Origin: Gordonia sp. SID5947
GTDB taxonomy: Bacteria > Actinomycetota > Actinomycetes > Mycobacteriales > Mycobacteriaceae
Direction: 5' to 3'
Assembly (NCBI RefSeq): GCF_009862785.1
Contig: NZ_WWHU01000001.1
Span: 3,286,001 to 3,350,000, forward strand
Length of the DNA stretch: 64,000 nt
In this document: positions 1 through 20,194 of the stretch, in pieces
How positions within the stretch are numbered: the first letter of the stretch is position 1
Layout: the number at the start of each line of letters is the position of its first letter
Program-made: the position numbers and the translations under genes
The notes under the pieces: model-generated
The model's database searches: none
What the model saw: only the letters and a program-made list of their open reading frames with translations
What the model was told of the DNA's origin: nothing

Positions 1-233
1 ACTTTCGGACCGAATCTCTCAGCCGGACAATCGAGACGGCCGTCGACATGGATGCGGAAATCACCCTCGAAGAGACCTCACTCGGATCAGTCGGCCGCAT
101 CGCGAGACTCTGTGACCCTGTGGGAGCGCCGTTCGGTCTGATCGAACTCGCCCCGCACTCTGCCGATCCCGAACCCGACCCAGGCGCCGGCCGCGACGAC
201 AACGCCGGCTTCCCGACGACCCTCTCACTATGA
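1..233 (+). CDS. VOC-fold (glyoxalase/bleomycin-resistance-like) protein, C-terminal fragment cut by the window edge
   Basis: The frame is open from base 3 with no stop upstream, so the gene begins outside the window and only about 76 C-terminal residues are visible. The visible part (SRTIETAVDM, then RLCDPVGAPFGLIEL) is the last beta-alpha unit of a VOC domain. It matches the end of the VOC gene at 4976-5799, including the unusual tail DDNAGFPTTLSL against DDNAGYPTSLRL, so the two are paralogues. The stop overlaps the ATG of the next gene as ATGA, which implies translational coupling. The family covers metal-dependent lyases, dioxygenases and drug-binding proteins; no substrate can be named from a fragment. 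Confidence 0.75.
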   Translation, partial: FRTESLSRTIETAVDMDAEITLEETSLGSVGRIARLCDPVGAPFGLIELAPHSADPEPDPGAGRDDNAGFPTTLSL

Positions 234-2812
234 CCAGTAACCGCACCCGCGCCCCAGAGGCGACTCATCGCGACGCCTGGCTGGCCGCTGCACATTCCAC
301 CGACGCCCTATCCGGCCTGCTGGTGTTGCTCGGCGTCCTCCTGACCGCGGCCATCGGCTGGGGGATTCATGCCGCAGGCCACCCGTACCCCGCATACGCG
401 GTCTTCGCCGTTGTGACGGTGTTCTTCATCGGCTGGTGTGCATGGGACGGTCTGTCGCGCCTCCTCTCGTCCTTTCGGATCCCGGCACGCCGCTTCCGGA
501 TGATGGGCTACAACGTCGTCGCCACCGCGGATGGTTTGATCGTCGACACATTGTCCACCAGCGGTTTCGCCACCTGGGCGGAGCTGGCACAGACCGCTGA
601 TCTGAGTGTGGATCGTGGCGCGATGAAGCCGCATGACAAGTACCCGAAGATCGCAATCGTCGTCGACGGGGCGGTTATCCGCGGGCGACGGCGGTCACGT
701 CGCGTCGCGACCTGGGCCTCGCGTGTCGACGCACATCCGGAACGTATCCGGATTCCTCTGACCCCGACGTTCGACCCAGGCGGCGCGCTCGGCGCCGTGC
801 TGGCCGTCATCGGCGATCACTGTCCCGAACTCGGCACCAAGATCGACCGCGCAATGGCCACCGTGACGACGTTGCCCGAACGGCCCGTGAGCACGGACCC
901 TGCGGCGACAACCGGCATGAGGCCATCGACCACTCTGCCGACCGCACCCTCTGGGTCCTCGGCGCCCAAGGCCCCAGTGCAGGACATCCCCCTGGTATCG
1001 GCCGACCGTCCCCCGCGCGTCGGTCCAGCGCTCCTGCTCCTTGTCTTCATCGGCCTCCCCGCCCTGTATGTGGTGGGAGATCTCGCCATCGGTACCGGCG
1101 ACACCCGCATCACCTCTGCCGCGGTCACCGCCTGGGCAGTCGTGGTGGTCTGGTTCCGCGGCCGAAACCGACTGGTACGCACACTGTCTCGCATCGGGAG
1201 AGTCAATCTCGACCGGCTCCACCGGATGAACTCACGACTGACAGCCACCCCGGGCGGCCTGATCATCGACCACCGACGCATGACGGAGTTCCTCCCGTGG
1301 GCCGGCATCCGTACCGCGCCGCATTCCATCGCGTCACCGGGCTCACCGACACCCGTATCCGAAATGCCACCCTCCACACTGATCGTCGGTGACGGCGTGG
1401 CGATTCCGCGTTCTCGCCGGTGGCGGGCGATCGGCGACTGGGCGGAAGCGCGCTCCGGATCACCGACGACCGTATATTACGACGTTTCGTCGCTCGCCGG
1501 TTCCGAAAGCTACGGACGGCTGCTCGCAACACTGCGTCAGAACTGTGCCGGCGTGGAGGTGACCGCACCGACGACCACCAAAGACGGCCGTCGCGCGAGG
1601 CGCCGACAACGTGACGAATGGCTGGCGGACTCCCAACTCAGTTCGATGGGAACGATTCTCACGGTGCTTCTGGTGATCACCGCTGCCATCGCCGTGCTCG
1701 GCGGACTCGTCGTCGCGCTGGCTACCCAGCCGATCCAACACGCGGTCGCGCTTGCAGTGTTCGCGCTCCTCGGGGTGATCGCGCTCAAACCGGTGATCAC
1801 CTCGATGATCCGTGCCGGTGGCCGGCAACCCGACCGATTCCGTTGGGCAGGCTGCCATCTCGCCGTCACGCCGGACGGACTGATCCTGACGGGCCGACGT
1901 CGCACCGAGTGGTTGAGCTGGGCGGGCATCACCGGGGTGGAGCCGCATCCGATGAACCGTCGACAGGCGCGGATCCTGGGCGTACCACCCATCGTTCGGC
2001 CGACGATCGTCGGCTCAGGACTGTTGCGCTCGCACTGGTTCCCGATCCGCCACATCGGCAGTTTTCGATCGCGACAAGGGCGCCGGGGGCCCGTCCACAT
2101 CGATCCGGAAGTGTTCTTCGACCAGAACGAGATCGCCAGACACCTCTGGCGGTACCGGCCCGACGTCGCTGCCGAATGCGGATTCCCAGAGGCCGTCAAC
2201 GTGCCGGTCACGAGCTACGGTTCCGGGGATTCCACACACCGCAGTCTCCGCGGCAGCCTCACGACGAGCGACGCCTCCACTGCGGTGACGCTGCGTATTC
2301 CCGATTACGGGGCGACTCTCACCGAGTACTTCCCCGACCAAACCCGGATTCGGGTTTCCGGCGAACGGATACCGACGGTCAGCATCGAGCGTCACGGTGG
2401 TCGCCGTCGTCACGCGATCCCCATCGGGACCACAAAGCTCTCGTCGTTGGCGATCACCGTGGACGGCACCTCGGTCGAGCCGGCGCGCGTTCAGCGGGAC
2501 TTCGTCACGTTTCGCCGACATCAGTACGCCATCACCGACGGCACCGGCGGCCTGTTCCTGATGAAGCCCACGTACTTCGTGTCGGGCAACGAGATGCAAG
2601 CCCATCGCGGAATCCGGCCATACGCGCTGCGACCGATCGCCCGGCGCCACGGCGACGGACGGATCACTCTCACCCTGCTCGGGAGCACCACCGACGATCA
2701 GGACGCCACCCACATCGCGCTGACGCTGGCACTGGCCGCCGCCTTCGGTACCCGGTCTGTGCAACTTCGCAACATCCCGTTGTTGCCGGCCCACCTGCTC
2801 AACTGGCTCTGA
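230..2812 (+). CDS. Large membrane protein with three [two-helix + PH-like] modules and a unique C-terminal domain
   Basis: This 860-residue protein repeats one module three times: two hydrophobic helices followed by a PH-like beta unit. The PH-like cores start near residues 88, 325 and 536 and share the pattern 'xxxTPxGLIxxxxxxxexLxWAGI' (FATWAELAQT, FLPWAGIRTA, WLSWAGITGV). Two modules begin with similar leaders (DAWLAAAHS, DEWLADSQLS). A Pro/Thr/Ser linker lies near residues 220-260. About 195 residues after the third module (from about 665) are soluble, rich in beta pattern and resemble nothing I can name. The start overlaps the preceding VOC stop (ATGA). The neighbours (YbaB-like, WXG-like, T7SS substrate) suggest a T7SS accessory or immunity-like membrane role. 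That is inference; no family is assigned. Confidence 0.8.
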   Translation: MTSNRTRAPEATHRDAWLAAAHSTDALSGLLVLLGVLLTAAIGWGIHAAGHPYPAYAVFAVVTVFFIGWCAWDGLSRLLSSFRIPARRFRMMGYNVVATADGLIVDTLSTSGFATWAELAQTADLSVDRGAMKPHDKYPKIAIVVDGAVIRGRRRSRRVATWASRVDAHPERIRIPLTPTFDPGGALGAVLAVIGDHCPELGTKIDRAMATVTTLPERPVSTDPAATTGMRPSTTLPTAPSGSSAPKAPVQDIPLVSADRPPRVGPALLLLVFIGLPALYVVGDLAIGTGDTRITSAAVTAWAVVVVWFRGRNRLVRTLSRIGRVNLDRLHRMNSRLTATPGGLIIDHRRMTEFLPWAGIRTAPHSIASPGSPTPVSEMPPSTLIVGDGVAIPRSRRWRAIGDWAEARSGSPTTVYYDVSSLAGSESYGRLLATLRQNCAGVEVTAPTTTKDGRRARRRQRDEWLADSQLSSMGTILTVLLVITAAIAVLGGLVVALATQPIQHAVALAVFALLGVIALKPVITSMIRAGGRQPDRFRWAGCHLAVTPDGLILTGRRRTEWLSWAGITGVEPHPMNRRQARILGVPPIVRPTIVGSGLLRSHWFPIRHIGSFRSRQGRRGPVHIDPEVFFDQNEIARHLWRYRPDVAAECGFPEAVNVPVTSYGSGDSTHRSLRGSLTTSDASTAVTLRIPDYGATLTEYFPDQTRIRVSGERIPTVSIERHGGRRRHAIPIGTTKLSSLAITVDGTSVEPARVQRDFVTFRRHQYAITDGTGGLFLMKPTYFVSGNEMQAHRGIRPYALRPIARRHGDGRITLTLLGSTTDDQDATHIALTLALAAAFGTRSVQLRNIPLLPAHLLNWL

Positions 2813-2914
2813 CTCGCCCGTCATCCACGCAACCGACAATTCAGCATGCCGAAGACAGCCCCGGCCACCTGCATTGATAGCCTGGCGCCGTCAACTATCT
2901 GTAGGGGGACAGAT

Positions 2915-3445
2915 ATGGAGTTTCCACGTACCGCCGACGACGTCGCACCACTACTCGACACGATGAACTCGCTGATGAGCGAGATGGGCGAGATCCGCCA
3001 GACGGCCGCCGCCCTCACCGCGACAGCCACCGAACTCGGCGGTCGTGTCCAGGTGACCGTCAACGCCCGCGGCATCGTCGTGGAGACAGTGGTCGACGAG
3101 GACGCCCTCACCACCGTGACCGCCCGTGATCTCGGGGCCGCGTTCACGTCAGCGACCCAGAAGGCGGCCCAGCAGGTTGCCGAAAAGGCCCAGGAGCTGT
3201 GGGCTCCGATCATCGAGAAGCAGAAGTCACTGCCTCGCGCATCAAACCTCCTCGACGGTCTTTCCGACATCACGACGATGTTCGGCACCAGATCCGAACC
3301 TCCGCTGCATCCGCATCGCCACGACGATCCGGACGAGGTCTACGTCGAGGTCGAAGAGACTGCGGCCATCGACGACGAACCCCACTACGAGGAGACCAGC
3401 GAGCGCGAGCCACGCCGCGGCACCATCACCGATCGCGCCTGGTGA
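2915..3445 (+). CDS. YbaB/EbfC-like protein associated with a T7SS cassette
   Basis: I start at ATG 2915 because AGGGGG sits 7 bases upstream; an in-frame ATG at 2846 has no ribosome site. The 176-residue protein has an amphipathic N-terminal helix (LLDTMNSLMSEMGEI), then a short beta unit (GRVQVTVNARGIVVETVVD) and a second helix. This is the fold order of the YbaB/EbfC nucleoid-associated family. The C-terminal third is acidic and probably disordered. YbaB-like proteins such as EspL recur in ESX loci, and this window has three. It lies 30 bases ahead of the WXG-like gene, in the same direction. DNA binding is possible but not shown; a chaperone or scaffold role for secreted partners is equally possible. 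Confidence 0.65.
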   Translation: MEFPRTADDVAPLLDTMNSLMSEMGEIRQTAAALTATATELGGRVQVTVNARGIVVETVVDEDALTTVTARDLGAAFTSATQKAAQQVAEKAQELWAPIIEKQKSLPRASNLLDGLSDITTMFGTRSEPPLHPHRHDDPDEVYVEVEETAAIDDEPHYEETSEREPRRGTITDRAW

Positions 3446-3474
3446 GCACCGGACACGTCATCTAGGAGACCGCC

Positions 3475-3792
3475 ATGGCAGATCATTTCCTGATCGAACC
3501 GGAGCAATTCGACCGGTACGCGACCCTCATCGGGCAGCTCGGCGCCGCGTTGGCAGACGCAGAACTCGCCCTTGCCTCCGACCTCCACGACGAAGGTGAG
3601 TGCTGGGGCGACGACGACCCCGGCAAGTCCTTCGCCGGCGCGTACGGGCCCAAGGCCGAAACGGCGTTCGGCAATACGCAAAGCGTCGCGAGACACCTCG
3701 GCGAACTCCATACGGCACTGGTCGATTCGTCGAATCGCGCCAAGGATCAGGAGGCCGCCACTTCCTCCGCCAACCGCAACGCGGGGAGTTGA
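3475..3792 (+). CDS. Small WXG100-like / EspC-like T7SS protein
   Basis: This 105-residue all-helical protein has the helix-turn-helix layout of WXG100 proteins, with the turn ECWGDDDPGKSFAGAYGP at about residues 43-60. 'WGDDxxGxxFAxxYxP' is the common variant found in WXG100 partners of T7SS polymorphic-toxin substrates. AGGAG precedes the ATG at good distance. It ends 6 bases before the long substrate gene, so the two are surely co-transcribed and probably act as secretion partners, as EsxA/EsxB-type proteins do. I see no clear YxxxD/E signal near the C-terminus, so the partner may carry the export information. Confidence 0.75.
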   Translation: MADHFLIEPEQFDRYATLIGQLGAALADAELALASDLHDEGECWGDDDPGKSFAGAYGPKAETAFGNTQSVARHLGELHTALVDSSNRAKDQEAATSSANRNAGS

Positions 3793-3798
3793 GCGCCG

Positions 3799-4956
3799 AT
3801 GGGGATGGAACTGCCGGGTGCCATCGCCGGCCCCCTGGGGTGGGTCGGAATGGAGTGGCCCAAGGGCGACGAGTCCGCGATGGATCGGTTGAACGACGAC
3901 TGGGAAAGGTTCGCGCGCAACGTAAGCGCCATCCAATCGGAGCTCAACTCGGTGGCCGGCGGGATCGGCCATTCCATCGACGGCGACATGCAGACCGCAC
4001 TGGACGCGCAGCTGAAGGCGATTCTCTCGGGCGACCAGTCGTTGGAGAAGCTCATCACGCAGGCCGCCGACATCGCTGAGTGCTGTAACACCATGTCGAA
4101 TGAGATCTTGGTCCTCAAGGTCATCTTCATCACCGAACTGGTTGCGTTGGCCACCTATGTGGCATTTCTGGTGGCGACCTCGGAGTTCAACTGGTCGGCT
4201 CCGATCGAAATCGCCCAAGCAGTGCTCGAGGGCAGGCTCACCCTCACCGAAGCCGTCGAATTGGTCGCGCGACGCATCCTCGCCAAGCTGCTCGAGAAAG
4301 GTATCGAGGAATTCGGCTCGGCATCGACCAAGGAAATGGCCAAGCTCCTCGGCAAAGACCTTCTGCACAACGTTCGCGGCAAGGCTTTCAACGCCGCGAT
4401 CATCGAGGGTTCCAAGAAACTTGCCTTCACCTCGCTCGATCAGGTTCGCGACAACGTGTTGTGGGACAAGCCGATGGACCCCAAGGAACTGATCGAGAAG
4501 ACCACGGTCAGTGCCGTCACGGGGGCAGCCCTCAGCCCGATTGCCGCCAAGGTCGACGATCTGGTGACGAACCGGGGAGACGACACCGCCAAAGGCTTGG
4601 TGAACATACTCGGCCCCGGTCGTGCCGCCGACAAACCCTCGGCTCGTCAGAAAGCAATCGAACCTCTGGTCGGATTCGGCAACTGGTGGGGCAAAGACAC
4701 TCTACCGGGCAAGCTCATCGGGCCCGCAACCAAGTACGCAGAAGAACGCATCGTCGGCCCCGGGCTCGAGTCCAACTGGGAGAGGGGCGAACAGCCGGGA
4801 ACAGAAGAACCCCATTCCATTCCGTCCGAGCCGAGCGCCGAGCGCAGTGGGGCATCGCCATCGATCGGACCTGCATCGGGCCCGATCGTCTCCTCGAGGG
4901 ACAGCCAAACCGCGACTCCCGCCGCGAACGGCACCGTGCCCGGCATCGCTCCCTGA
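3799..4956 (+). CDS. T7SS substrate of the polymorphic-toxin carrier type, lacking a recognisable toxin domain
   Basis: The N-terminus (ELPGAIAGPLGWVGMEWPKG, then DRLNDDWERFARNV) is typical of the WXG100-like domain that opens actinobacterial T7SS polymorphic toxins. A hydrophobic segment (about residues 104-130, VFITELVALATYVAFLVA-like) and a long helical region follow. In known toxins the last 100-200 residues carry a nuclease, deaminase, NADase or ADP-ribosyltransferase. Here the last ~100 residues are Pro/Ser/Thr-rich with no catalytic signature I recognise, and no classic immunity gene follows. It may be a structural substrate, a decayed toxin, or an effector with a new domain in residues 200-300. 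It follows the WXG-like gene directly. Confidence 0.65.
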   Translation: MGMELPGAIAGPLGWVGMEWPKGDESAMDRLNDDWERFARNVSAIQSELNSVAGGIGHSIDGDMQTALDAQLKAILSGDQSLEKLITQAADIAECCNTMSNEILVLKVIFITELVALATYVAFLVATSEFNWSAPIEIAQAVLEGRLTLTEAVELVARRILAKLLEKGIEEFGSASTKEMAKLLGKDLLHNVRGKAFNAAIIEGSKKLAFTSLDQVRDNVLWDKPMDPKELIEKTTVSAVTGAALSPIAAKVDDLVTNRGDDTAKGLVNILGPGRAADKPSARQKAIEPLVGFGNWWGKDTLPGKLIGPATKYAEERIVGPGLESNWERGEQPGTEEPHSIPSEPSAERSGASPSIGPASGPIVSSRDSQTATPAANGTVPGIAP

Positions 4957-4975
4957 CGGCTGAAGGCGCTACCCG

Positions 4976-5799
4976 ATGACCACCGAAGCTCCGCATTCTC
5001 CCATCGTGCCGGGCCCGCCGTACTGGATCGACCTTGTCACGCCCGATCTCGAACAGTCGAAGCTCTTCTACCGAACCTTGTTCGGATGGGTCTATACGGA
5101 TGAGGGCCACGAGTCGATTGCGATGCTCGACGGCCGTCCCGTATGCGGATTGTGGCCCGACTCAGGGAAACTCGCTGCCGGACTTTCGTACTGGCACACC
5201 TACTTGCAGGTGCACGACATCCACACCACACTCGAACGACTGTCGGAGACACGAGAGGCGGTCCTCTGGGGCCAGGTGACTACCGAGGAGCCGCGGTGGT
5301 GGCCACGGTCCAAGACCCGGCCGGCGCCACATTCAGCCTCTGGGAACCTCGGACTGTCGGGCGTCTACTGACCGACGTCCCCGGCTCTCTCACTTGGGCG
5401 GAACTCGTCGTCGACGAACCGTCTTCCGTCGCAGATTTCTATCACAACCTCCTGCACCTCAATGCGCGAACAATCGCTCTGGAGGACCGCCGCTATCGCG
5501 TACTGTGCGTGGACGACGTTCCCGTATCGGGAGTGGTCCGATCTGCGGTCAAAGCACATTGGCGCATCTACTTTTCGGTCTCTGATCTGAGTGCCACTCT
5601 CAGCAGAGCCGAAAGCATCGGAGGCAAGGTCCTATCCCCTCCGTCGGCGACGATTCCCGGTACCACAGCGCTGATCCGGGACCCGCACGGAGCAATCGTC
5701 GGCCTGATGGAGGCCGACCACGGACGCGGCGCCAACTCGAGGCACGCCGTTTCCGAGGTCGACGACAACGCCGGCTATCCGACGTCGCTCCGGTTGTGA
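4976..5799 (+). pseudogene. Two-domain VOC-fold protein, interrupted by a single-base frameshift
   Basis: The first frame (4976 to about 5267) encodes a complete VOC half beginning TTEAPHSPIVPGPPYWIDLV. It then runs into nonsense, while the -1 frame continues the family sequence (GPGDYRGAAVVATVQDPAGA, second VOC half, tail DDNAGYPTSLRL) to 5799. Restoring one base at TGGGGCC near 5266-5268 gives one 274-residue protein of the usual two-domain VOC length. Its tail matches the partial VOC gene at the window start, so the T7SS cassette is bracketed by paralogues. The G/C-run context suggests a base-call error, but a real null allele cannot be excluded. It lies 19 bases after the T7SS substrate gene and is probably in its operon. 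Confidence 0.7.
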
Positions 5800-6020: not shown

Positions 6021-7508
6021 CTATCCGCCGGACCCACCTGACCCGGCCTCCACCACAGACCCCATACCGTCCGACTCCACCGTGTCCCGTTCGACCAACG
6101 CATCGTGTTGGGAGAGAGCGGGTCCGGTCGGCAGCAAGCCCACGATCGGCCAGGGTGCCACCTGCGGTTGATCGCCGAGCCCGAGGGATTTTCCGGTGGC
6201 GTCGTCGGCGACCTCGAACCGGACGCCTGCGTCGTTGACGAAGACCAGCGATTCGCGGCGTGGTGAATCCGGATCGCTACCCGTGGTCGCCACGTAGTTG
6301 CCGGTACTCGGTGGGATGTACGCAGTGTCGAGGCCCGGTCCAGAACCGTCGCTGGTGGCCAGAGCGACGGGCGCTTTTCCTTCGGCCAGCGGCAACCCGG
6401 AGCCGGCCAGGACCCGCAGCGACGCACTCGCGTTGTCGCCGGAGGAACGATCCCAGGCGAGGCAGCCGACAGGTGCCGAACGCTGGTCGACGATTTTCGG
6501 GGCGGTCGCCGGAAAGTCCTCCACCGCAAGGTCATGCAACTGGGCCGCATCGGTGATCGCGGCCGGCGCCACAGAGTCGATCTGCCCGCCGGCGGCGTCG
6601 TCGGAGTAACGGATCACGTCGGCGGCAGCCTGGCCGATCTTCTGAATCCCGTTCTCGAGCACCACATAGAGCGTCGGGTCGGCGTCGCCCACACCGGCGA
6701 CCTCGATGACCGTGCCCACCGCACCGAGTCCGGTCCGCGACGCCTTCCCTCGATCAGGGATGTCGGGGGTGGTCAGTTCGGCTGCATCTGGGAAGGCGTT
6801 CAACATGCCCGCGCTGACCGGACGGACGGTCGCGTCGTCGAGGCCGAAAGCCCTTGCCACGGCGGGATCGTCAGTGTCGACGAGGTGTCGTCTACCGCGG
6901 TTGAGCAGATAGGTCTTGTCTCCGGTCCGGACCAGCAGGCCTTCCCCACCGGAGAGCGCGCGGCTGGCACCCTGATTCTCCGGTGCCGACGACAGGACGG
7001 TGGTGGTGACGCCGCCGTCCATCGAGCCCGAACCGGTCGGCACCGCAACGGTGTCACACACCGTCCAATACGAGTGGCCGCCGTCCTGCGGACCCGGCAG
7101 CGTCTGTGGGGCACCGGGAATGCCGACGAGCGGACCACGCTTGTAATCGGTCATCTTGGACTCCGACACCGACGACGGCTTCTCCGGGCTACCGATGATG
7201 AGTCGCGCGGACGCCACGTTCAGCACAGGGTGCAGGGTGTCGTCGATCATGACGAACAGTCCGCCGGATTCCTTGCTGACGACGATCTTGCTGTCGCCGA
7301 CGGAGCCGGCCGGCTTGATGAGGCCGTACACCGCGCATCCGCCCGTGACGAGCAGGGCGAGGGCGATACCGACGATCGCTGCTCGGAAGTGGGAGCGCAT
7401 CGGATCCTGCAGCATGCGCACGTCGCGGCGCATCAATGCATGTTCCAGACGACGGAGCAGGAAGCGGTAGCCGTTGACTTGTTGGCGCGTCGTCAACTGT
7501 GCGGGCAC
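6021..7508 (-). CDS. eccB: EccB, membrane component of the ESX/type VII secretion core
   Basis: I choose GTG 7508 because GAGGGGAGGG lies just upstream; the frame runs further to 7580 without a ribosome site. The 495-residue product has the EccB signature start (PAQLTTRQQVNGYRFLLRR), a cytoplasmic stretch, one transmembrane helix (AAIVGIALALLVTGGCAVYG, about residues 45-65) and a large periplasmic domain with repeats of the R1-R4 type. EccB, EccC, EccD and EccE form the inner-membrane secretion complex. It is transcribed away from eccE across an 89-base spacer. eccC and eccD, usual neighbours, are not in this window. Confidence 0.95.
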   Translation of the reverse strand: MPAQLTTRQQVNGYRFLLRRLEHALMRRDVRMLQDPMRSHFRAAIVGIALALLVTGGCAVYGLIKPAGSVGDSKIVVSKESGGLFVMIDDTLHPVLNVASARLIIGSPEKPSSVSESKMTDYKRGPLVGIPGAPQTLPGPQDGGHSYWTVCDTVAVPTGSGSMDGGVTTTVLSSAPENQGASRALSGGEGLLVRTGDKTYLLNRGRRHLVDTDDPAVARAFGLDDATVRPVSAGMLNAFPDAAELTTPDIPDRGKASRTGLGAVGTVIEVAGVGDADPTLYVVLENGIQKIGQAAADVIRYSDDAAGGQIDSVAPAAITDAAQLHDLAVEDFPATAPKIVDQRSAPVGCLAWDRSSGDNASASLRVLAGSGLPLAEGKAPVALATSDGSGPGLDTAYIPPSTGNYVATTGSDPDSPRRESLVFVNDAGVRFEVADDATGKSLGLGDQPQVAPWPIVGLLPTGPALSQHDALVERDTVESDGMGSVVEAGSGGSGG

Positions 7509-7597
7509 AAACCCTCCCCTCGTCCCCGTACATTTGTGCTGGACGGTATCGTACAGGGGCTGAGCACTGGTAATACGCATGGGGGAGGCTGCGCGGG

Positions 7598-9289
7598 GTG
7601 ACCGATCGTACGTCGTTCAACGTCCACGCGCCCGACACCTTCTGGGCGGAACGGTGGCTGCCGACTCCCGTCCTGCTACTTGCCGAAGGCGTGGTGATCG
7701 CAGCGACCTTCATCGCCGGAGTGTTGGGTCAACCCTGGTGGATCGGCGCGATCATCGGTGCCGTACTGGCCATCCCCACCCTCGTCAGATCACGCGGGAA
7801 CTCGGTGGCCCACAGGATCTCTGCACGCATGGGGTTCATTCGTCGACGGATGCGCCGCCCTGAGTTCTGGTACGAGCCCCCGTTTGACGTGCCGCTCGCC
7901 GAAGGCGGCAGTTGCGGTGTGCGATGGGACGGCGACCGCCTGATCACTATGGTGCGCATCGAGGCCAACCCCCGCGCTGTCACCCGTTTCGCGCCGGGCC
8001 GCGTCATCACCGACGATGTGGTGCCCCTCGATCTCATCGCGGAGTGCCTGCACCAATTCGATATCGAGCTCGAATCGGCCGACATCGTCAGTCACGGTTC
8101 GCGCGCCTACGGCAACGGCAACATCGCCCGCATCTACAGCCAGATCCTCGGGCCCCTGCCCGCGACCGCTTTCCGCTCGGTGACCGTGGTGCTGAGGCTC
8201 AACCCGCTCGCCAATGCCGACGCCATCGAACGTCGCGGAGGCGGCCCAACCGGTGTGCTCCGCACCGCCATCGTCGCCACTCGTCGCGTCGCGAATCGCC
8301 TGTCCGGCAAAGGCCACGCAGCTACCATCCTCACGGCGGCCGAGATCAACTCGGTGTTCACTGCGCTGATGGAGGGCACCAGCCCCGACGATCTGGTCGA
8401 GTCCTGGGATCACGTCCAGGTCGGCTCGATGCACTCGCACAACTACCGGCTCGACCAGACCGCACTCTCGGATCCCGGCCTCGGCGCCCCGTGGACGGTG
8501 CCGAGCCTCAGCACGGTGCTCACGCTGCATCTGCGGCCCGCCGAGAATCACGAGGTTCACCTGAGTGCGTTGGCCCGCTTCAACACTCTGACGGCAGATC
8601 CCGTTCCGGTTCCCGAGGGCTTCCACCCGTGCAACGGTCACCAGCGCGACGCCTACGTTGCGGGCCTGCCACTCGCCGATCCGTTCGACGATCGCGCCCA
8701 GATGGAGTACCTGACAACACGCGATTCCCTCGCCGCCGTGGCTCTTCCGGCAGCCGGTTGCGGTCAGCTCGTGGGCGCCGACGAGGAAGGCCGAGCCGTG
8801 GCGCTGTCCCTCGTCGGGTCGAGTGTTCGAACGGTCGAGATCGCCGGCACCCTCAACCTCTGCCAACAGGTGGTGCTGCGCGCGATCGCGCTGGGCGCCC
8901 GCGTCATGGTCAGCACGGATCGACCGGCCGACTGGATGCCGATGGCGCACGCGGTGGGCGACCCCCGCACCCTCGCGGTTGCCGGCGCCGCCGCCGGTTC
9001 ACAGGTCGCAGGCCAGCGACAGGGCTACTCGGTACTGGTGTTCGACGGTGTGGCACAGGAATCCATCAGTGCCGAGGCCACCATCATCACCGTGACCGCG
9101 CCCGGACTGGACGCCCAGCCCGGCGCCGACGTCGCCCTCCTACAGGACGCCGACGTCGGTCCTTGGGTGATGGTCCGCAGCGGCACCGAGGCCTCGCCGG
9201 TGGTCATGGTCGCCACCGATGACGAGATGCGTTACATCGGTTCGTCTCTCAACGCACCTGACCGGCAACTCAGCAGGCACCGCCGCTGA
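7598..9289 (+). CDS. eccE: EccE, membrane component of the ESX/type VII secretion core
   Basis: GTG 7598 follows GGGGGAGG at 9 bases. The 563-residue product starts with a short cytoplasmic leader, then two adjacent transmembrane helices (LLLAEGVVIAATFIAGVL and IGAIIGAVLAIPTL, about residues 24-62). A long soluble domain follows with the EccE pattern VPLDLIAECLHQFDIELESADIVSHG-like and a glycosyltransferase-like C-terminal part. In the ESX complex EccE sits at the periphery and stabilises the hexamer. It is divergent from eccB and convergent with the esx genes, with a strong hairpin at its 3' end. Confidence 0.93.
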   Translation: MTDRTSFNVHAPDTFWAERWLPTPVLLLAEGVVIAATFIAGVLGQPWWIGAIIGAVLAIPTLVRSRGNSVAHRISARMGFIRRRMRRPEFWYEPPFDVPLAEGGSCGVRWDGDRLITMVRIEANPRAVTRFAPGRVITDDVVPLDLIAECLHQFDIELESADIVSHGSRAYGNGNIARIYSQILGPLPATAFRSVTVVLRLNPLANADAIERRGGGPTGVLRTAIVATRRVANRLSGKGHAATILTAAEINSVFTALMEGTSPDDLVESWDHVQVGSMHSHNYRLDQTALSDPGLGAPWTVPSLSTVLTLHLRPAENHEVHLSALARFNTLTADPVPVPEGFHPCNGHQRDAYVAGLPLADPFDDRAQMEYLTTRDSLAAVALPAAGCGQLVGADEEGRAVALSLVGSSVRTVEIAGTLNLCQQVVLRAIALGARVMVSTDRPADWMPMAHAVGDPRTLAVAGAAAGSQVAGQRQGYSVLVFDGVAQESISAEATIITVTAPGLDAQPGADVALLQDADVGPWVMVRSGTEASPVVMVATDDEMRYIGSSLNAPDRQLSRHRR

Positions 9290-9370: not shown

Positions 9371-9655
9371 TCATCCGCCGATCGCGTTGGCACCGGCCTG
9401 ATCGGTCTGGTGCATGTGCTGGCCACCCTCCCGAACCGCGTTCGCGATCTTGGCCAGGATCTGCTGGGTGTCGCTCATCTCGGATTTCCACGACGCCATC
9501 TTCGCCTGGTAGGCCTCGTAGGAACCACCGGTGAAGGTGCCGCTGAGCTGCTTGACCGCCGACTCGAGGGTCTCGGTCTGGGAGATCAGGTTGTGCCCGT
9601 TCTGCTGGAGCGCGTCGGCCAGAGCGTTGATCTCGCCGAAGTTGTACTTCATCAT
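9371..9655 (-). CDS. esxA: EsxA-like (ESAT-6 family) secreted protein with FTG in place of WXG
   Basis: This 94-residue helical-hairpin protein aligns with ESAT-6 along its second half (SYEAYQAKMASWKSEM, then IANAVREGGQHMHQTDQAG). The canonical Trp of the WXG turn is replaced by Phe (F41-T42-G43), while the helix-2 Trp (ASWKSE) is kept. The position of Tyr in a YxxxD signal holds Met (MHQTD). It is second in a bicistron after the EsxB-like gene, 40 bases downstream, with GAAAGGA before the ATG pair at 9655/9652. Together they should form the secreted heterodimer of this ESX system. Confidence 0.88.
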   Translation of the reverse strand: MMKYNFGEINALADALQQNGHNLISQTETLESAVKQLSGTFTGGSYEAYQAKMASWKSEMSDTQQILAKIANAVREGGQHMHQTDQAGANAIGG

Positions 9656-9695: not shown

Positions 9696-10022
9696 TCAGA
9701 GGTTGAGGCCGCCGGCCTGCATGCTCGAGAAGCTCGACGCGATGTCCTGGTTCGCGGTGTCCGAACCCTTGAACACGGTGCCGCTCAGCGTCTCTGCGAG
9801 ATCGTTCAGCTTCGCATTGAGACGCGCGGCCTCGGAATCCCACTCGGTCGCGGTCGACTGGAACGCGTTGAATGCGTCGCCGACCCACGACGCCCGAGCG
9901 GTGTCGACCTCGCCACTGATCACCTTCAGCGTCTGACGAAGACTGTCGATCACCTCGTGAACCGTGTCGGTGTGCTTGAACCCGGCATCGAGGTCGAGTT
10001 CGAAGTTGTTACCTTCCGCCAT
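9696..10022 (-). CDS. esxB: EsxB-like (CFP-10 family) secreted protein
   Basis: This 108-residue protein keeps the WXG turn (SWVGDAF, W46-V47-G48) and a helix-2 Trp (ATEWDSEA). The flexible tail carries FKGSD (F84-D88), a conservative form of the YxxxD/E export signal. By analogy with CFP-10 this tail is the part read by the secretion ATPase EccC. GGAGG stands 8 bases before the ATG. It is the first gene of the esxB-esxA pair, with 112 bases between it and the espG stop, room for its own promoter. Confidence 0.9.
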   Translation of the reverse strand: MAEGNNFELDLDAGFKHTDTVHEVIDSLRQTLKVISGEVDTARASWVGDAFNAFQSTATEWDSEAARLNAKLNDLAETLSGTVFKGSDTANQDIASSFSSMQAGGLNL

Positions 10023-10134: not shown

Positions 10135-10941
10135 TCAGTCGAGCCACCGTCCATTCGGCAAGGTTTCCACCAGCAGCCCGATGGCCTGCTTGATGCGATG
10201 TCCCGAACCGGCAGACAATGTGGTCCACATCTGCCCGTCTGGGGACACACTGGGACTGCCCACCACGCGACCGCGAGCGGTCTCGTAGACGGCGACAGCA
10301 CCAGACGCTTGTTGGGTACGGCCTTCCCAGGTCTCGTACGCGACGATCTCGGCGTAGCCACGGCAATCGGCAAACGCCGTACCGAGTTTCATCGATTCCT
10401 GCTGATCCACCCCGAGTGCGTACAGCACTTCGGAATACTCGGCAGAGCTGGTCGCGGCGTCGAGACGTTCGGCGAGTTCGGCGGTCGGCAGGCTCACCGA
10501 CGTCAGTTTCGCCTCATCGGCCGCCCCGAGGCAGGACACGATCTTCTGTGCCGCAGAGTCGACTCCGTCGACCGACACCGTCTCGACGGTGACCGAGCTG
10601 CCGTACCGAAGTACCAACACATGCTCACGCCCGCGGCGCGCCAACAAGATCCGTCGTACGCCACCCTCGCCGAACACCCTGGCCTGCAGTTGTACCTCGG
10701 GGGCCGTGACCATGCGCAACGCGAGGTGGAAGTTCTCGTCCACACCCTCAGGGCCGAGTAGGCCTGCGGTCCGGAGTTCGGCGTCGGCCTCCGCCACACC
10801 GGCCTGGTATGCGTCGATGGTGTCGTACCGTGCCGACATGTCGAGCACCGTCGGCCAGATCTGCACATCGATCAGCTCGCCCGCTCGCCACAAAGCGTCG
10901 ACCGAGATCGTGTGCAGCAGATCGGTCATCGTGTCCCACAT
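10135..10941 (-). CDS. espG: EspG-family chaperone for PE/PPE substrates
   Basis: The 268-residue product has the EspG layout, with an N-terminal strand region (HTISVDALWRAGELI), the central 'FHLALRMVTAPEVQLQARV' stretch and a C-terminal repeat of the fold (YAEIVAYE, TLSAGSGHRIKQAIGLL). EspG proteins bind the hydrophobic tip of a PPE protein in the cytosol and deliver the PE-PPE dimer to the ESX machine. The ATG (10941) shares its A with the stop of the PPE gene (TGATG), so the two are translationally coupled, which fits a chaperone-client pair. Confidence 0.88.
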   Translation of the reverse strand: MWDTMTDLLHTISVDALWRAGELIDVQIWPTVLDMSARYDTIDAYQAGVAEADAELRTAGLLGPEGVDENFHLALRMVTAPEVQLQARVFGEGGVRRILLARRGREHVLVLRYGSSVTVETVSVDGVDSAAQKIVSCLGAADEAKLTSVSLPTAELAERLDAATSSAEYSEVLYALGVDQQESMKLGTAFADCRGYAEIVAYETWEGRTQQASGAVAVYETARGRVVGSPSVSPDGQMWTTLSAGSGHRIKQAIGLLVETLPNGRWLD

Positions 10942-12041
10942 CAGTCGCGACCCCTGTCGTCGGGGGCACCGAGGACGGCGGGCGAGACCTGTCCGTCACC
11001 GAGATCGAGCACGCCCTCGGGAAGTGTCGGCGCCGAGGGCGTCTCGTACCGTCCGGCGATGTCGGACCAGGAGACCTCGGTGTCGTGCTGATCGGCCTGA
11101 ACCCAGCCGGCGGGGAGATTCACACCCGGTGACGAAGCGCCGGCACTGCTCTGCGTCGGCTCGGCGGAAGCCGGCCGGTGCTCGTCATCGCCCGATCGCG
11201 CGCCCGCTGCCGCCGCACCCGCGCCTGCGCCCGCAGCCATCGGGACCGAGCCCGACGAACGGTCGGGCTCGGACGATCCCGTGCCCTCCACGAGTTGTGT
11301 GGGAGCGTCGCCGCTCGCCGCCAATTCGGTTGTGGCGTACCTGGATTTCTCGCGCGTGATGTCGATCCCACGAGCCGCGCCGAACATCGGCGCCATCGCG
11401 AGACCGGCCTGGATGCCGGTGCCCTGCGCGATTGCCTTTGCCTTCTCCGCGGCCTCACGGGCTGCGGCGGCCTCGGCATTCAGTGCCGCCTCGGACACGA
11501 TGTGCGGGGGTTTGGGGAGCGTCCAGGGTTTCTCGATCGGTGTGGACGCACGTTCGTAGCTCTCCATCACCCGTGAGGCACGCTGCTTCTGATCCTGCTG
11601 TGTCCGTTCGGTGTTCGCCGCAGCCGCGATCAGCGGCGAGCCGGCGGCGGCGTGCACATGGGACAACGCCTCCTGCACGGCCTTCGTGGCCTGGATCTCC
11701 ACCGGATTGGGCATGGCGGTCAGCGCAACTGTCGTGGCCACCGCCTGCCCCTCCGCCGCGGCCGCAGTCTGGACCGCCTGGTTCGCCGCGTCGGCGAACC
11801 AGGGTGCGAACTGCATCAGCTTCTCGAAAGCATGGTTGTACGAGTGCGACTCCCAGTGCACCCCGAGCTCGGTGAGGATCTTGCCGTACTCCACACCGAT
11901 CTCCGCGAGTTCACCCGCCACCGCGGTCCACGCGGCACCGCTCTCGGCCATTCGTGCAGGACCGAGCCCGTTGTGCAGGTCGTGGGCGAGCCGCTCCGCG
12001 GGACGCCCCTCCCAGATCACACCGGTGAATCCGACGATCAT
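10941..12041 (-). CDS. PPE-family T7SS substrate
   Basis: The 366-residue product starts with a PPE-type domain (GFTGVIWEGRPAERLAHDL). The eponymous Pro-Pro-Glu is replaced by GRPAE, as is usual outside Mycobacterium, and the long helix pair continues to about residue 180. The middle contains an Ala-rich helical stretch, and the tail is Gly/Ser/Ala-rich and acidic. It is coupled to espG downstream and follows the PE/EspC-like gene by 42 bases. This gives the standard PE-PPE-EspG order, so it is the likely EspG client and a secreted heterodimer with one of the small helical proteins nearby. Confidence 0.88.
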   Translation of the reverse strand: MIVGFTGVIWEGRPAERLAHDLHNGLGPARMAESGAAWTAVAGELAEIGVEYGKILTELGVHWESHSYNHAFEKLMQFAPWFADAANQAVQTAAAAEGQAVATTVALTAMPNPVEIQATKAVQEALSHVHAAAGSPLIAAAANTERTQQDQKQRASRVMESYERASTPIEKPWTLPKPPHIVSEAALNAEAAAAREAAEKAKAIAQGTGIQAGLAMAPMFGAARGIDITREKSRYATTELAASGDAPTQLVEGTGSSEPDRSSGSVPMAAGAGAGAAAAGARSGDDEHRPASAEPTQSSAGASSPGVNLPAGWVQADQHDTEVSWSDIAGRYETPSAPTLPEGVLDLGDGQVSPAVLGAPDDRGRD

Positions 12042-12435: not shown

Positions 12436-13779
12436 TCAGAGCCGCAGATCCACATCCGGAGATTCGACTTCGATCTCACTGTCGCCGCCGAGTACCGGCG
12501 GCGCGGCGTGCGGCATGTCCCCGACGACCTCGGTTCCGTGATCTGCGGTCACCAGGAAGTCCGGGGAACCATGTCCGTCGTCTGCGCCCGCGCCGCGAGC
12601 GGCTCCCGCCGCGCCCGCCGCCCCTGCGCCCATCGGCATCATCCCGCTACCGGTGGTGGCCCCGCCGACGCCACGGGCAGCAGGCGCCGAGGTGGCACCA
12701 CCCGTCGTTCCCTCGACCGGCCCGGTGCCCAGGTTCGGTGCCCCGGGACGCGCTTGCAGCTGCGTGGCCGGCGCCCCGACCCCACCACCGCCTGCGCCAC
12801 CGCCTCCGGCGCCGCCGCCCTTCTTGCCGGCGCCGCCAGCGCCCGAATGAAGACCCGCGGGCACAGTTGCGCCCTTCTCGCCCTTGGCTTTCTCGAGGCT
12901 TGCCTGGTGAGCGGCGGTCAATTGCTTCGTCATCGACCCCATCATCGACGTGCCCGTACCGGCAAGCCCGCTGATCGGCTGACCGACGGATTCCAGCACG
13001 GACGCGGCGATACCGAAGGGCGACGGACTCGTCGGCGCACCGGTGATCGGGATCTGCGCGCCGTTGGCCGTCTGTGTCGCTGTCTCGGGTGCGAGAGCGG
13101 TCTTGGTCCCGGTGACGATCGCGATCGCCTCTCCCAGGGCGGCGCTCGCGGCCGCCAAGATCGCCATCATGCCGGCCGGTGCCGTCGGCGGTGTCATGAG
13201 TAGCGGCAAGGTCATCGTGACCTCGACGTTGAACTTGGCGATCACGCCCTGGATCGACGCGTTGCCAGTGCCGACGATCCCGGCCCCGGCCTGGGTGTTC
13301 GCGGCGATGCCGGACGACTTGCCTGCGACCGCACCGGCCTGGCCCGCAGCCGTGGCGGACTTGGCCGCGTTCGACATCGCAGCCTGTCCTTGCCAGACCT
13401 GGTCGGCGGCTTTCAGTGCGCCGCCCGACATCCCGATCATCGACTGCATGATCGATGACAGTCCGGTGAACAGTTGGGTCGGATCGAAGCCGCTCTCGCC
13501 GAGATCGCCCGATCCGAACGATTGCGCCAGATCGGTCAGCGGCTTGAACAGGTGCTCGATGTCGATCGGCGGGAACGGGGGGAGGCCCGGCATGGCGGGT
13601 GGGAGTGGAGCCGGCATCTGCGGGAGGGGCGGAAGCCCCAGCTTGGACAAGACGTCTCCGACGGGAGTCTCGAGAATCGGCCCGAGGGGACTGTTCTCGA
13701 GCATGTCGATGAGGGATTGGTCAATGGGTGCGGGCACCAGCGAGTTGGTGCTGTCGAACGGCGCGTTACCGTGCGTCAT
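12436..13779 (-). CDS. EspA/EspE-like secreted T7SS protein, Gly/Ala/Pro-rich
   Basis: This 447-residue protein has a Pro-rich start (PLPQMPAPLPPAMPGLPPF), a helical middle containing a WQG turn (KAADQVWQGQAAM, about residues 125-137) and a hydrophobic hairpin (LPLLMTPPTAPAGMMAILAA). The tail is Gly/Ala-rich with an acidic end. The order helical WXG-like unit, hydrophobic pair, low-complexity tail is that of the EspA/EspE group co-secreted with ESX-1, but similarity is loose and I would not claim orthology. AGGAG lies about 11 bases before the ATG. It sits between two small helical substrates, all in one direction. Confidence 0.6.
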   Translation of the reverse strand: MTHGNAPFDSTNSLVPAPIDQSLIDMLENSPLGPILETPVGDVLSKLGLPPLPQMPAPLPPAMPGLPPFPPIDIEHLFKPLTDLAQSFGSGDLGESGFDPTQLFTGLSSIMQSMIGMSGGALKAADQVWQGQAAMSNAAKSATAAGQAGAVAGKSSGIAANTQAGAGIVGTGNASIQGVIAKFNVEVTMTLPLLMTPPTAPAGMMAILAAASAALGEAIAIVTGTKTALAPETATQTANGAQIPITGAPTSPSPFGIAASVLESVGQPISGLAGTGTSMMGSMTKQLTAAHQASLEKAKGEKGATVPAGLHSGAGGAGKKGGGAGGGGAGGGGVGAPATQLQARPGAPNLGTGPVEGTTGGATSAPAARGVGGATTGSGMMPMGAGAAGAAGAARGAGADDGHGSPDFLVTADHGTEVVGDMPHAAPPVLGGDSEIEVESPDVDLRL

Positions 13780-18428: not shown

Positions 18429-19982
18429 TCAGCTCGAGGCCGGCACCGTCGCCACGTCGATCCCAGAGATCTGGTTGTCGGCCAACAGTTTCGACATGGC
18501 GTTCGCCGAGTTCTGCTCGGCGAACACCCAGCGCACGGGTTGATCGCCGGCCGCGGCCTTCGCCTTCTTCGCCTGCTCGGCCACCTGCTGCGTCCCGGCC
18601 CACGACGGGTCGAAACTCCCACCGCGCACGTGATCGTCGTACCCGGGTGCGGCCGTCATCAGCAACGTGCCGTCCGCGTCGCGGCCGTCGAACGGGACGT
18701 CACCCACCAGGTAGCCGAAACCGGAAGGCACACCGGCGATCTGCTGATTGAATCGGCGCGCCACCGGATCGGCCTTGTACCCGCCCGGATACCAGTGGCC
18801 CGGTTGCGCGGTCGCGATGTCGCGACCCTTCTCGGCCGACTCCACGATCACCCTGACATCCTTCTCCGCGGTGGCGGAGATGTCGAAGTTGCTGTCCGCG
18901 TGATAATTGATGGTCCGAGTGCGGGGATCGGGGAAGCGGAACGTGCACGTCGACTGCCCCGCGCCGTTCATGGGCATGGTGACTGTCCGCGCGCAGGATC
19001 CGGCCGGCGCACCGTTGACCGTGAGCGACGACGTCTGCTGGATGGTCACGGTGCCGCGGTCGGCACCGGGCATGCTGTTGGTGAACTGGTACTCGAGGAC
19101 GCAGAAGGTGTTTGTACAAGCGTCGAGATTGCCGCTGGGTTTCGGTACGTCGACCTGCGGCGCCGCGACTCTCGACAGTGGGTCGGAGAAGCCCTGGATC
19201 GTCGAATAGAAGGACTTCACCTCGTCATCGGTGAGCAGTGTGACCTTGAGCTTGGTGGTGGTCGGACGATCGGTGGGTGCGGTACGGACCGGCCCGGCGA
19301 TGCCCCAGATGCTGCCGTCGGCGTTGACGCGTACTGGGTTGTCCCCGGCGACGAGGGTCTGGCCGTCGGATTCGACCGGCCCGGCGCGAAGCCCCTGCGG
19401 GTCAGAGGTCGACCGGACGCGACGATCAGGTGTCTGATCGGCCTCGGGAACCGGTGTCGTGTTGTCGCTCTCGAAAATTCGTTGGTCCTGGTCTTGGGAA
19501 CCGAGCCCGAACGAGGCCGGCCGCAAGGTGGCTCCGAGGTCGATGCCCAGGAAGTCCGGAGGCACGAGCGCCCAATTGCCCGCGGCCCCAGACGAATCGT
19601 GCCGGACCGAGCGGTCCGCGCCCGCGCTGTGTGCATCCCAGAACGCGGCGCCGGCCTTGAGATACGTGCCGCCGGCGATCATCAGCACCTCGGCCGGCTG
19701 CCCGTCGAGGGTCACCGTGCCGTGGACATCCCCGGCAGCCGTCACCGTCAGATCCTGCACCTGCATCGACTGACCGCCCGCGACGATCTCACCGCTGTAG
19801 GAAGCGGCGGGGGCGTCGGCCATCGCCGTGGTCGCGTGGTCGAGTTCCTTCTGGGCGCGGGTCGGCGCGTCGGACACCGCCTCACCCGTCGTCGAGCGCG
19901 GAACGACCCCGCTGACGGTCACCACGATCACCACAACCAGCACGGCAACCATCGCGCCTGCCGCGATCTGCGCCTTGCGCAT
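18429..19982 (-). CDS. Membrane-anchored extracytoplasmic protein of unknown function in the ESX locus
   Basis: I start at ATG 19982, which has GAGGA 6 bases upstream; the ATG at 19988 overlaps that site. The 517-residue product has one N-terminal transmembrane helix (AGAMVAVLVVVIVVTVSGVV) and a long extracytoplasmic region. Two paired-Cys spots (DACTNTFCVLEY and SCARTVTM / STCTFRF) suggest disulfides. The last ~120 residues hold mixed alpha/beta sequence (YPGGYKADPVARRFNQQIAG). I do not recognise the family. Its place between eccA and two wall hydrolases makes a cell-envelope role in secretion plausible. Confidence 0.75.
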   Translation of the reverse strand: MRKAQIAAGAMVAVLVVVIVVTVSGVVPRSTTGEAVSDAPTRAQKELDHATTAMADAPAASYSGEIVAGGQSMQVQDLTVTAAGDVHGTVTLDGQPAEVLMIAGGTYLKAGAAFWDAHSAGADRSVRHDSSGAAGNWALVPPDFLGIDLGATLRPASFGLGSQDQDQRIFESDNTTPVPEADQTPDRRVRSTSDPQGLRAGPVESDGQTLVAGDNPVRVNADGSIWGIAGPVRTAPTDRPTTTKLKVTLLTDDEVKSFYSTIQGFSDPLSRVAAPQVDVPKPSGNLDACTNTFCVLEYQFTNSMPGADRGTVTIQQTSSLTVNGAPAGSCARTVTMPMNGAGQSTCTFRFPDPRTRTINYHADSNFDISATAEKDVRVIVESAEKGRDIATAQPGHWYPGGYKADPVARRFNQQIAGVPSGFGYLVGDVPFDGRDADGTLLMTAAPGYDDHVRGGSFDPSWAGTQQVAEQAKKAKAAAGDQPVRWVFAEQNSANAMSKLLADNQISGIDVATVPASS

Positions 19983-20194
19983 CGACATTCCTCGATCACC
20001 CCCGACGTGCACCGGCCCGGTGCACGGTATGTTCGGAACCCCACTCTGCTCGGACCCACTCTGCCCTGCGCGGGCCGGCCGCCGGAGACGGGGTCGGTCA
20101 TGCGCATGACTGCGCAGCAAACTCGTGACTTGATAACCTACATTGCGAAAGCTGTGACGCTCGGGCGTGTGCCACCGGGCAAGGGGGTCAGATC

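Follow-up and report, generated by a model that had tools for sequence, protein, structure and literature searches.

The stretch analysed here (the window) comprises 64,000 nucleotides of the genome of Gordonia sp. SID5947, G000:C1:3286001-3350000, in which G000 denotes the window's own genome. It opens within a tandem pair of one gene module linked to a type VII secretion system (T7SS). Each copy contains genes for a YbaB-like protein, a small WXG-like protein, a T7SS substrate with a WXG100_2 head and a VOC protein; a gene for a membrane protein with several putative PH-like regions is an optional fifth gene that closes a copy, giving the layout [YbaB-WXG-substrate-VOC1-PH][YbaB-WXG-substrate-VOC2]. 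The VOC proteins of these modules end in a conserved tail with the hydrophobic spacing of the EsxB secretion signal. We propose, with chances that we judge to be about even, that these copies are accessory substrate modules belonging to an ESX (type VII) system, in which the tail would address the VOC protein to EccC as cargo or as a docked regulator. The set is a narrowly distributed variant of T7SS substrate modules, and the EsxB-like tail of its VOC protein stands out as a feature that can be tested.

The frames for the 3′ end of VOC1, an 860-amino-acid membrane protein and the YbaB-like, WXG-like, substrate and VOC2 proteins were all confirmed to be open and on the forward strand, as the original prediction had stated, and the VOC1 and membrane-protein genes overlap by 4 bases. 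The prediction had read the six genes as a single cassette bracketed by VOC genes. That bracketing is an effect of the window edge, because VOC1 starts at G000:C1:3285406, around 0.6 kilobases (kb) before the window, so that its remaining part lies directly upstream together with a YbaB-like, a WXG-like and a substrate gene of its own (L006:11311-13385 and L007:1406-2233; L numbers denote loci). There are instead two tandem module copies. A genome search with the 860-amino-acid protein returned a single other match, which led to a third, unlinked copy of five genes at 2.12 megabases (Mb; locus L011), with 4-base overlaps at the substrate/VOC and VOC/membrane-protein junctions. The gene order of copy 3 suggests that the multi-PH gene of the window closes the upstream module. 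Relative to copy 2 of the window, the YbaB-like proteins of the other two copies are 54 and 50% identical and the WXG-like proteins 40 and 37% identical; with the substrate of copy 1, those of copies 2 and 3 share 36 and 37% identity. The second VOC gene is present as predicted, but is split into two frames, with VOC profile matches switching frame near 5266-5281; an intact relative is the VOC gene of Gordonia rhizosphera (G330, locus L024).

The order YbaB-WXG-substrate-VOC thus occurs in three copies here and is intact once in G. rhizosphera, which bears out the T7SS-linked part of the predicted unit together with its VOC gene. Copy 2 and the G. rhizosphera module both stand directly before eccB, eccE and a WXG100 pair (by eye in G. 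rhizosphera, in which EccB- and EccE-like genes follow at what is the site of copy 2), and neither has the membrane protein. A second G. rhizosphera contig, C210 (L075), carries a decayed module between the neighbours of copy 3 (by eye); a YbaB-like frame, a C-terminal VOC piece and a membrane protein split over four open frames remain, and WXG and substrate genes were not found in it. Co-occurrence beyond close strains therefore holds for G. rhizosphera, but intact modules were found in just 2 of the 59 genus genomes (G000 and G330), and broad conservation of the whole set is unsupported. The substrate profile matches 7 of these 59 genomes, at module level only G000 and G330 (best other genome, E=6.0e-29); in the other five the matches are open frames of 1,558-1,912 amino acids, with an additional 447-amino-acid frame in one. 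Among 401 family genomes, 106 have WXG100_2-type matches at E<=1e-8 (best outside G000 and G330, 9.6e-34), and only these two score as module substrates. A scan of named genomes (28 distinct loci) found the four-gene set in L024 only.

Protein-database searches were word-based, with around 8,000 candidates scored in each, so that distant kin may be missed. When 5.8 billion proteins were searched with the VOC profile and 8000 candidates were scored, seven proteins matched at E<=3.7e-75 and the next at 2.3e-40. The top seven include Gordonia sp. CPCC 206044 twice (both on a listed contig of 541,572 bases) and CPCC 205515, so module-type VOCs occur in at least two further Gordonia genomes. Tailed VOCs were seen in such modules only or, otherwise, in assemblies (Gordonia among them) that offer no visible context.

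All nine module VOCs end, after a linker of variable length, in the conserved 12-residue tail [DN]DNAG[YF]PxxLxL, and both tails that the original prediction had given for the window were confirmed. Tail residues are 77% identical on average in pairwise comparison, versus 39% for the body (8 module VOCs, with VOC2 left out; P0008 starts late), and none of the 247 body windows of 12 columns reaches the tail value (highest, 72%). Of the 30 genus loci fetched and examined, 2 have module VOCs; the ordinary VOCs in the others, 28 in all, lack the tail, as do 20/20 further relatives (P0011-P0030 of 52 listed), of which P0015 ends in IKL. At the extreme C terminus, 9/9 module VOCs have Phi-xxx-Phi-x-Phi, with hydrophobic residues at -7, -3 and -1, which is the spacing of LxxxMxF in EsxB. 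According to the available text of PMC6954902, that EsxB tail binds ATPase 3 of EccC, alanine in place of any one of the three residues cost the peptide its binding, and yeast ubiquitin carrying the EsxB peptide is cited as having been exported by ESX-1.

Endings of this kind are usual in the EsxB-like proteins of the genus. A search with the local EsxB-like protein matched 22 of the 59 genomes and gave 23 frames, 22 of which end in Phi-x-Phi (18/19 distinct ends), mostly LxL or LxI. Against these endings, the VOC tail shows a strong fit at its last three residues and a weaker one at -7. In the window's genome, a WXG100 protein at 4.876 Mb that ends in SIGGGLRI fits at -7, -3 and -1. As background, 13 of 393 genes picked from 45 stretches, window included, end in Phi-x-Phi and 6 in Lx[LI]; the picking followed a simple rule on codon positions, which may have let in false frames and which misses some real short genes. 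Five of the six Lx[LI] genes lie in T7SS-linked loci and represent three families, VOC1 among them. A first, smaller count gave 6/340; the two differ because the second adds the T7SS loci of the window's genome and permits valine at the last position. A separate tail, SP[DN]V-x-[LF]-R-[LI], is shared by TPR-like proteins near the modules and a 447-amino-acid protein of the ESX locus, and is another Phi-x-Phi ending.

The nearest solved relative of the module VOCs is Rv0577 (PDB 3OXH): residues 9-249 of the module VOC profile align with residues 28-280 of the 282 of that chain (E=9e-43). Both halves of the broken VOC2 score above the cut-off for Pfam Glyoxalase, and their best NCBIfam match is the AfsK-binding protein KbpA at 36.4 and 66.9 bits, below its cut-off of 250 bits (VOC2 only was scored). 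Ordinary VOC relatives are common, with a match in 50 of the 59 genus genomes, including G000 and G330, as would be expected if VOC genes were equally frequent without T7SS genes; but the 28 that were read lack the tail, and the nine included in a tree of 18 rows all fall outside the clade formed by the nine module VOCs (support 100/100; VOC2 entered with its downstream part only). Within this clade, VOC1, VOC3 and VOC2 each fall in a starred subgroup of their own, and CPCC 206044 is present in two of these three, so the module types are probably older than these species. Among 8 module VOCs no histidine is invariant, and the only invariant acidic residues are E134, D105, D229 and D257, the last of which is in the tail. 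The lack of an invariant histidine argues against a classic metal enzyme, a role that is weakened on these alignments. Rv0577 appears among the culture-filtrate proteins of bacillus Calmette–Guérin in the available part of PMC3094199.

The substrates of the modules are short (368-402 amino acids). That of copy 2 has a WXG100_2 head, a hydrophobic middle and a proline-rich tail, and its scan against Pfam and NCBIfam (copy 2 only) returned no toxin domain, in agreement with the predicted lack of a known toxin end. Its head is homologous to the heads of the 1,558-1,912-amino-acid open frames in five other genus genomes. At three of five non-module genus loci (L064-L066; not L062 or L067), a YbaB-like and a WXG-like gene stand as a trio with a WXG100_2-headed protein of 1,551-1,651 amino acids, and no VOC gene was found in any of these five long-effector loci. 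At L062:13984-18396 (genome G327), five tandem, very similar genes for proteins of 235 amino acids resemble repeated immunity genes (by eye); before them stand a gene whose head is of the WXG100_2 type and a second frame, which is long. The small protein is WXG-like in arrangement only: that of copy 1 matches EspC (PF10824; E=2.5e-4, 21.9 bits versus a cut-off of 23.5) and WXG100 (E=1.3e-3), both under cut-off, and that of copy 2 matches neither. The C-terminal ending D-x-A-W is common to T7SS-linked YbaB-like proteins (window 2915-3445, L006:11311-11811, L011:7541-8065 and L135:8258-8770 on the reverse strand); no VOC gene is near the L135 protein among the VOC matches of its own genome.

The membrane protein was predicted to be a threefold repeat of two helices and a PH-like region. 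On a full-length AlphaFold model of low confidence (pLDDT 44.6) and inspection by eye, three units of a hydrophobic helix pair and a PH-like region can be drawn, so the repeat of helix pair and beta region is plausible, but a further, different beta-rich domain follows and the PH-like assignment is weakly supported. The sole PH match in sequence is bPH_6 in the homologue P0003 (E=0.0092, 16.4 bits versus a cut-off of 22), and no Pfam bPH match was obtained for the window's protein or its separate units. The C-terminal domain may be tubby-like, as modelled; a Foldseek search of the PDB with a model other than the full-length one found nothing at E<=0.001. The paralogue after VOC3 is 34% identical to the 860-amino-acid protein and 53% identical to P0003. 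As a partner of the module, the protein accompanies copy 1, copy 3 and the decayed G. rhizosphera copy, but it is absent from copy 2 and the intact G. rhizosphera module, so it was rejected as a core gene. It was found in 1 of 298 and 1 of 397 order genomes, both times the window's own (2 or 3 candidates were scored per listed genome), and in 4 of the 59 genus genomes: G000, G330 (in pieces), and G303 and G320 (over the C-terminal part).

In the proposed mechanism, the YbaB-like protein would act as a chaperone, the WXG-like protein and the substrate would form an exported pair, and the VOC tail would bind the recognition pocket of EccC ATPase 3. The tail would thereby bring the VOC protein to the secretion motor, where that protein would either leave the cell in folded form or regulate or license the export of the substrate encoded in the module. 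The role of the optional membrane protein is the least certain; with its PH-like and possibly tubby-like domains it might be a membrane-side anchor or receptor, and we would guess that it holds or senses module components at the membrane. A bolder version, to which we give somewhat less credence than doubt, is that a folded non-WXG100 protein has naturally acquired an EsxB-type tag and become a direct client of the T7SS motor, either as a separate, self-addressed cargo that replaces a fused C-terminal effector region or as a motor regulator. If so, the module substrate would be little more than a secretion head encoded beside the VOC protein, and the LxL and LxI tails of other T7SS-locus proteins (TPR-like, 447-amino-acid) would belong to a wider EccC recruitment code.

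Several observations weigh against an EccC-directed tail. The motif is short and was noticed after the fact, which makes its statistics post hoc, and the nine VOCs are one clade and count as one event. At -7, just 3 of the 23 Gordonia EsxB-like frames are hydrophobic, which makes the fit of the LxL ending better than that of the three-point motif as a whole. The 447-amino-acid and TPR-like proteins also end in LxL or LxI, so such an ending may serve another partner. In the available text of PMC6954902, isoleucine for the last EsxB phenylalanine, a conservative change, already abolished binding, EccC pockets vary among systems, and the EsxB tails in solved complexes with EccC are mostly helical; in the VOC tail, residue -6 is a proline. 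The module is present in few species, the eccC gene belonging to the window's ESX locus is around 1.1 Mb away from copy 3 and the other eccC found is 0.39 Mb away, and, if it is no sequencing error, the VOC2 frameshift would be surprising in an essential part.

It is conceivable, although we think it unlikely, that the VOC protein is instead a cytosolic regulator or ligand sensor that binds a partner as KbpA does, possibly a kinase or the YbaB-like chaperone, its tail docking on a module protein and not on EccC. The below-cut-off KbpA match of both VOC2 halves, the missing invariant histidine and the close coupling of VOC and substrate genes in all copies suit such a role, and KbpA is reported to bind AfsK and inhibit its autophosphorylation (PMC6988585, available text). 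The LxL ending, however, is usual for the EsxB-like proteins of the genus (22/23 Phi-x-Phi) and rare in other genes, and no kinase gene was noticed in the module, although no search was aimed at kinases.

An antibacterial toxin–immunity cassette, with the short substrate as a membrane-active toxin (by its hydrophobic middle) and the VOC and/or the polytopic membrane protein as immunity, appears improbable. Position after a toxin gene would suggest immunity, the homology of the substrate head to the long frames of five genus genomes is a polymorphic-toxin layout, and the substrates of the three copies diverge most after around residue 200 (by eye); yet the copy 2 substrate has no Pfam or NCBIfam toxin domain, neither copy 2 nor the intact G. 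rhizosphera module has the membrane protein, and the VOC protein retains its fold and conserved tail. We know of no Rv0577-type VOC that serves as an immunity protein. The original prediction had also considered a small-molecule enzyme, here an active VOC that would synthesise or degrade a compound used together with the secreted substrate. Many metal enzymes have the VOC fold, and the Glyoxalase matches agree with this; but with four invariant acidic residues and no invariant histidine in 8 sequences, with KbpA and Rv0577 as nearest models, and with the closest solved chain named just 'RV0577 PROTEIN', the idea is weakened and we consider it very unlikely. The envelope-modifying unit that the original prediction had offered as an alternative gains no direct support from these data.

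Table 1 Features of the module copies, the adjoining ESX genes and related loci. Plain positions refer to the window.
Feature	Position	Strand	Remarks
VOC1, 3′ part	1..233 (open frame 3-233)	+	275 amino acids whole; two VOC domains; L007:1406-2233
VOC1 C-terminal tail DDNAGFPTTLSL	195..230	+	EsxB-like spacing
860-amino-acid membrane protein	230..2812	+	Last gene of module copy 1 (order read from copy 3)
C-terminal domain of membrane protein, residues ~667-840	2228..2749	+	Beta-rich, terminal hydrophobic helix; tubby-like model
YbaB-like protein, copy 2, 176 amino acids	2915..3445	+	PF02575 E=1.2e-8; ends D-x-A-W as paralogues do
WXG-like small protein, copy 2, 105 amino acids	3475..3792	+	Alignment with paralogues
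T7SS substrate, copy 2, 385 amino acids	3799..4956	+	WXG100_2 head, PF25547 E=3.4e-13
VOC2, copy 2	4976..5799	+	Broken: frames 4976-5371 and 5143-5799
VOC2 C-terminal tail DDNAGYPTSLRL	5761..5796	+	Read from frame
EccB	6021..7580	-	PF05108 E=4.6e-167, TIGR03919
EccE	7598..9289	+	TIGR03923 E=5.8e-82
Second WXG100 gene of pair	9371..9655	-	PF06013 E=3.3e-13
First WXG100 gene of pair	9696..10022	-	PF06013 E=7.7e-11; ends ...AGGLNL
447-amino-acid ESX-locus protein	12436-13779	-	SP[DN]V-x-[LF]-R-[LI] tail
Copy 1 YbaB-like	L006:11311-11811		
Copy 1 WXG-like	L006:11860-12171		
Copy 1 substrate	L006:12177-13385		
Copy 3 YbaB	L011:7541-8065		
Copy 3 WXG	L011:8105-8425		
Copy 3 substrate	L011:8429-9535		
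Copy 3 VOC3	L011:9532-10368		
Copy 3 membrane protein	L011:10365-12317		
G. rhizosphera YbaB	L024:8809-9645		Longest frame
G. rhizosphera WXG	L024:9642-9995		
G. rhizosphera substrate	L024:10001-11194		
G. rhizosphera VOC	L024:11191-11970		Intact relative of VOC2
TPR-like proteins	L006:5200-5988; L011:6075-6869 (-); L075:8856-9659; L077:8377-9225		SP[DN]V-x-[LF]-R-[LI] tail

By position, we take the WXG100 gene at 9371..9655 to be EsxA-like and that at 9696..10022 to be EsxB-like. Beyond this pair are EspG, PPE and PE genes on the reverse strand and then EccA on the forward strand; an eccC gene, at G000:C1:3256552, lies around 27-30 kb upstream of the window. A 563-amino-acid protein (18429-20120, reverse strand) adjoins the ESX genes, and its C terminus weakly matches Tox-REase-5 (E=1.4e-4, below cut-off). 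Upstream of copy 1 are two near-alike lipoprotein-like genes (L006:8238-8876 and 10254-11060), near which stand an EspG-family gene (L006:5995-6957, reverse strand) and a PPE/EspB-like gene (L006:6914-8236). In G. rhizosphera, a small pair that resembles an antitoxin and a PIN-type toxin lies between a mycP-like gene and the module (L024:6611-7251; by eye).

Cargo choice by T7SSs beyond the small helical Esx, PE and PPE pairs is unsettled, and the module VOC makes cargo selection by EccC directly testable. A globular protein with an apparent EsxB-kind C-terminal label would, if confirmed, be a natural counterpart of the engineered export of ubiquitin with a tail (cited in the available text of PMC6954902), and secretion modules would have recruited a common VOC family of the Rv0577 type that frequently carries the annotation glyoxalase. 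In literature searches restricted to non-subscription papers, no publication turned up that ties either VOC proteins or the genus Gordonia to such T7SS modules.

The closest parallels to the parts of the module come from several known systems. With Rv0577 (TB27.3, PDB 3OXH) and Streptomyces KbpA, the module VOCs share two VOC domains, but they form their own clade, carry a linker and an EsxB-like tail and are set in a T7SS module. With the signal of EsxB (CFP-10), they share, in sequence, hydrophobicity at -7, -3 and -1 of the extreme C terminus, and LxL as in many Gordonia EsxB-like proteins; unlike EsxB, the carrier is globular and non-WXG100 with a proline at -6. The C-terminal domain of the 860-amino-acid protein has a candidate likeness to the Tubby or LURP-one-related fold. 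Actinobacterial long T7SS effectors have homologous WXG100_2 heads, with YbaB-like and WXG-like genes alongside in three of the five loci, whereas the module substrate lacks the long C-terminal region and has a VOC gene next to it. The EspL-EspE-EspF and EspD-EspA-EspC sets of mycobacterial ESX-1 likewise combine a stabilising protein (EspL is of the YbaB type) with two substrates, one small and one larger; EspC is a weak match of the WXG-like protein of copy 1, and the likeness to EspE and EspA is one of arrangement. To our knowledge, the VOC and membrane proteins have no counterpart in these sets.

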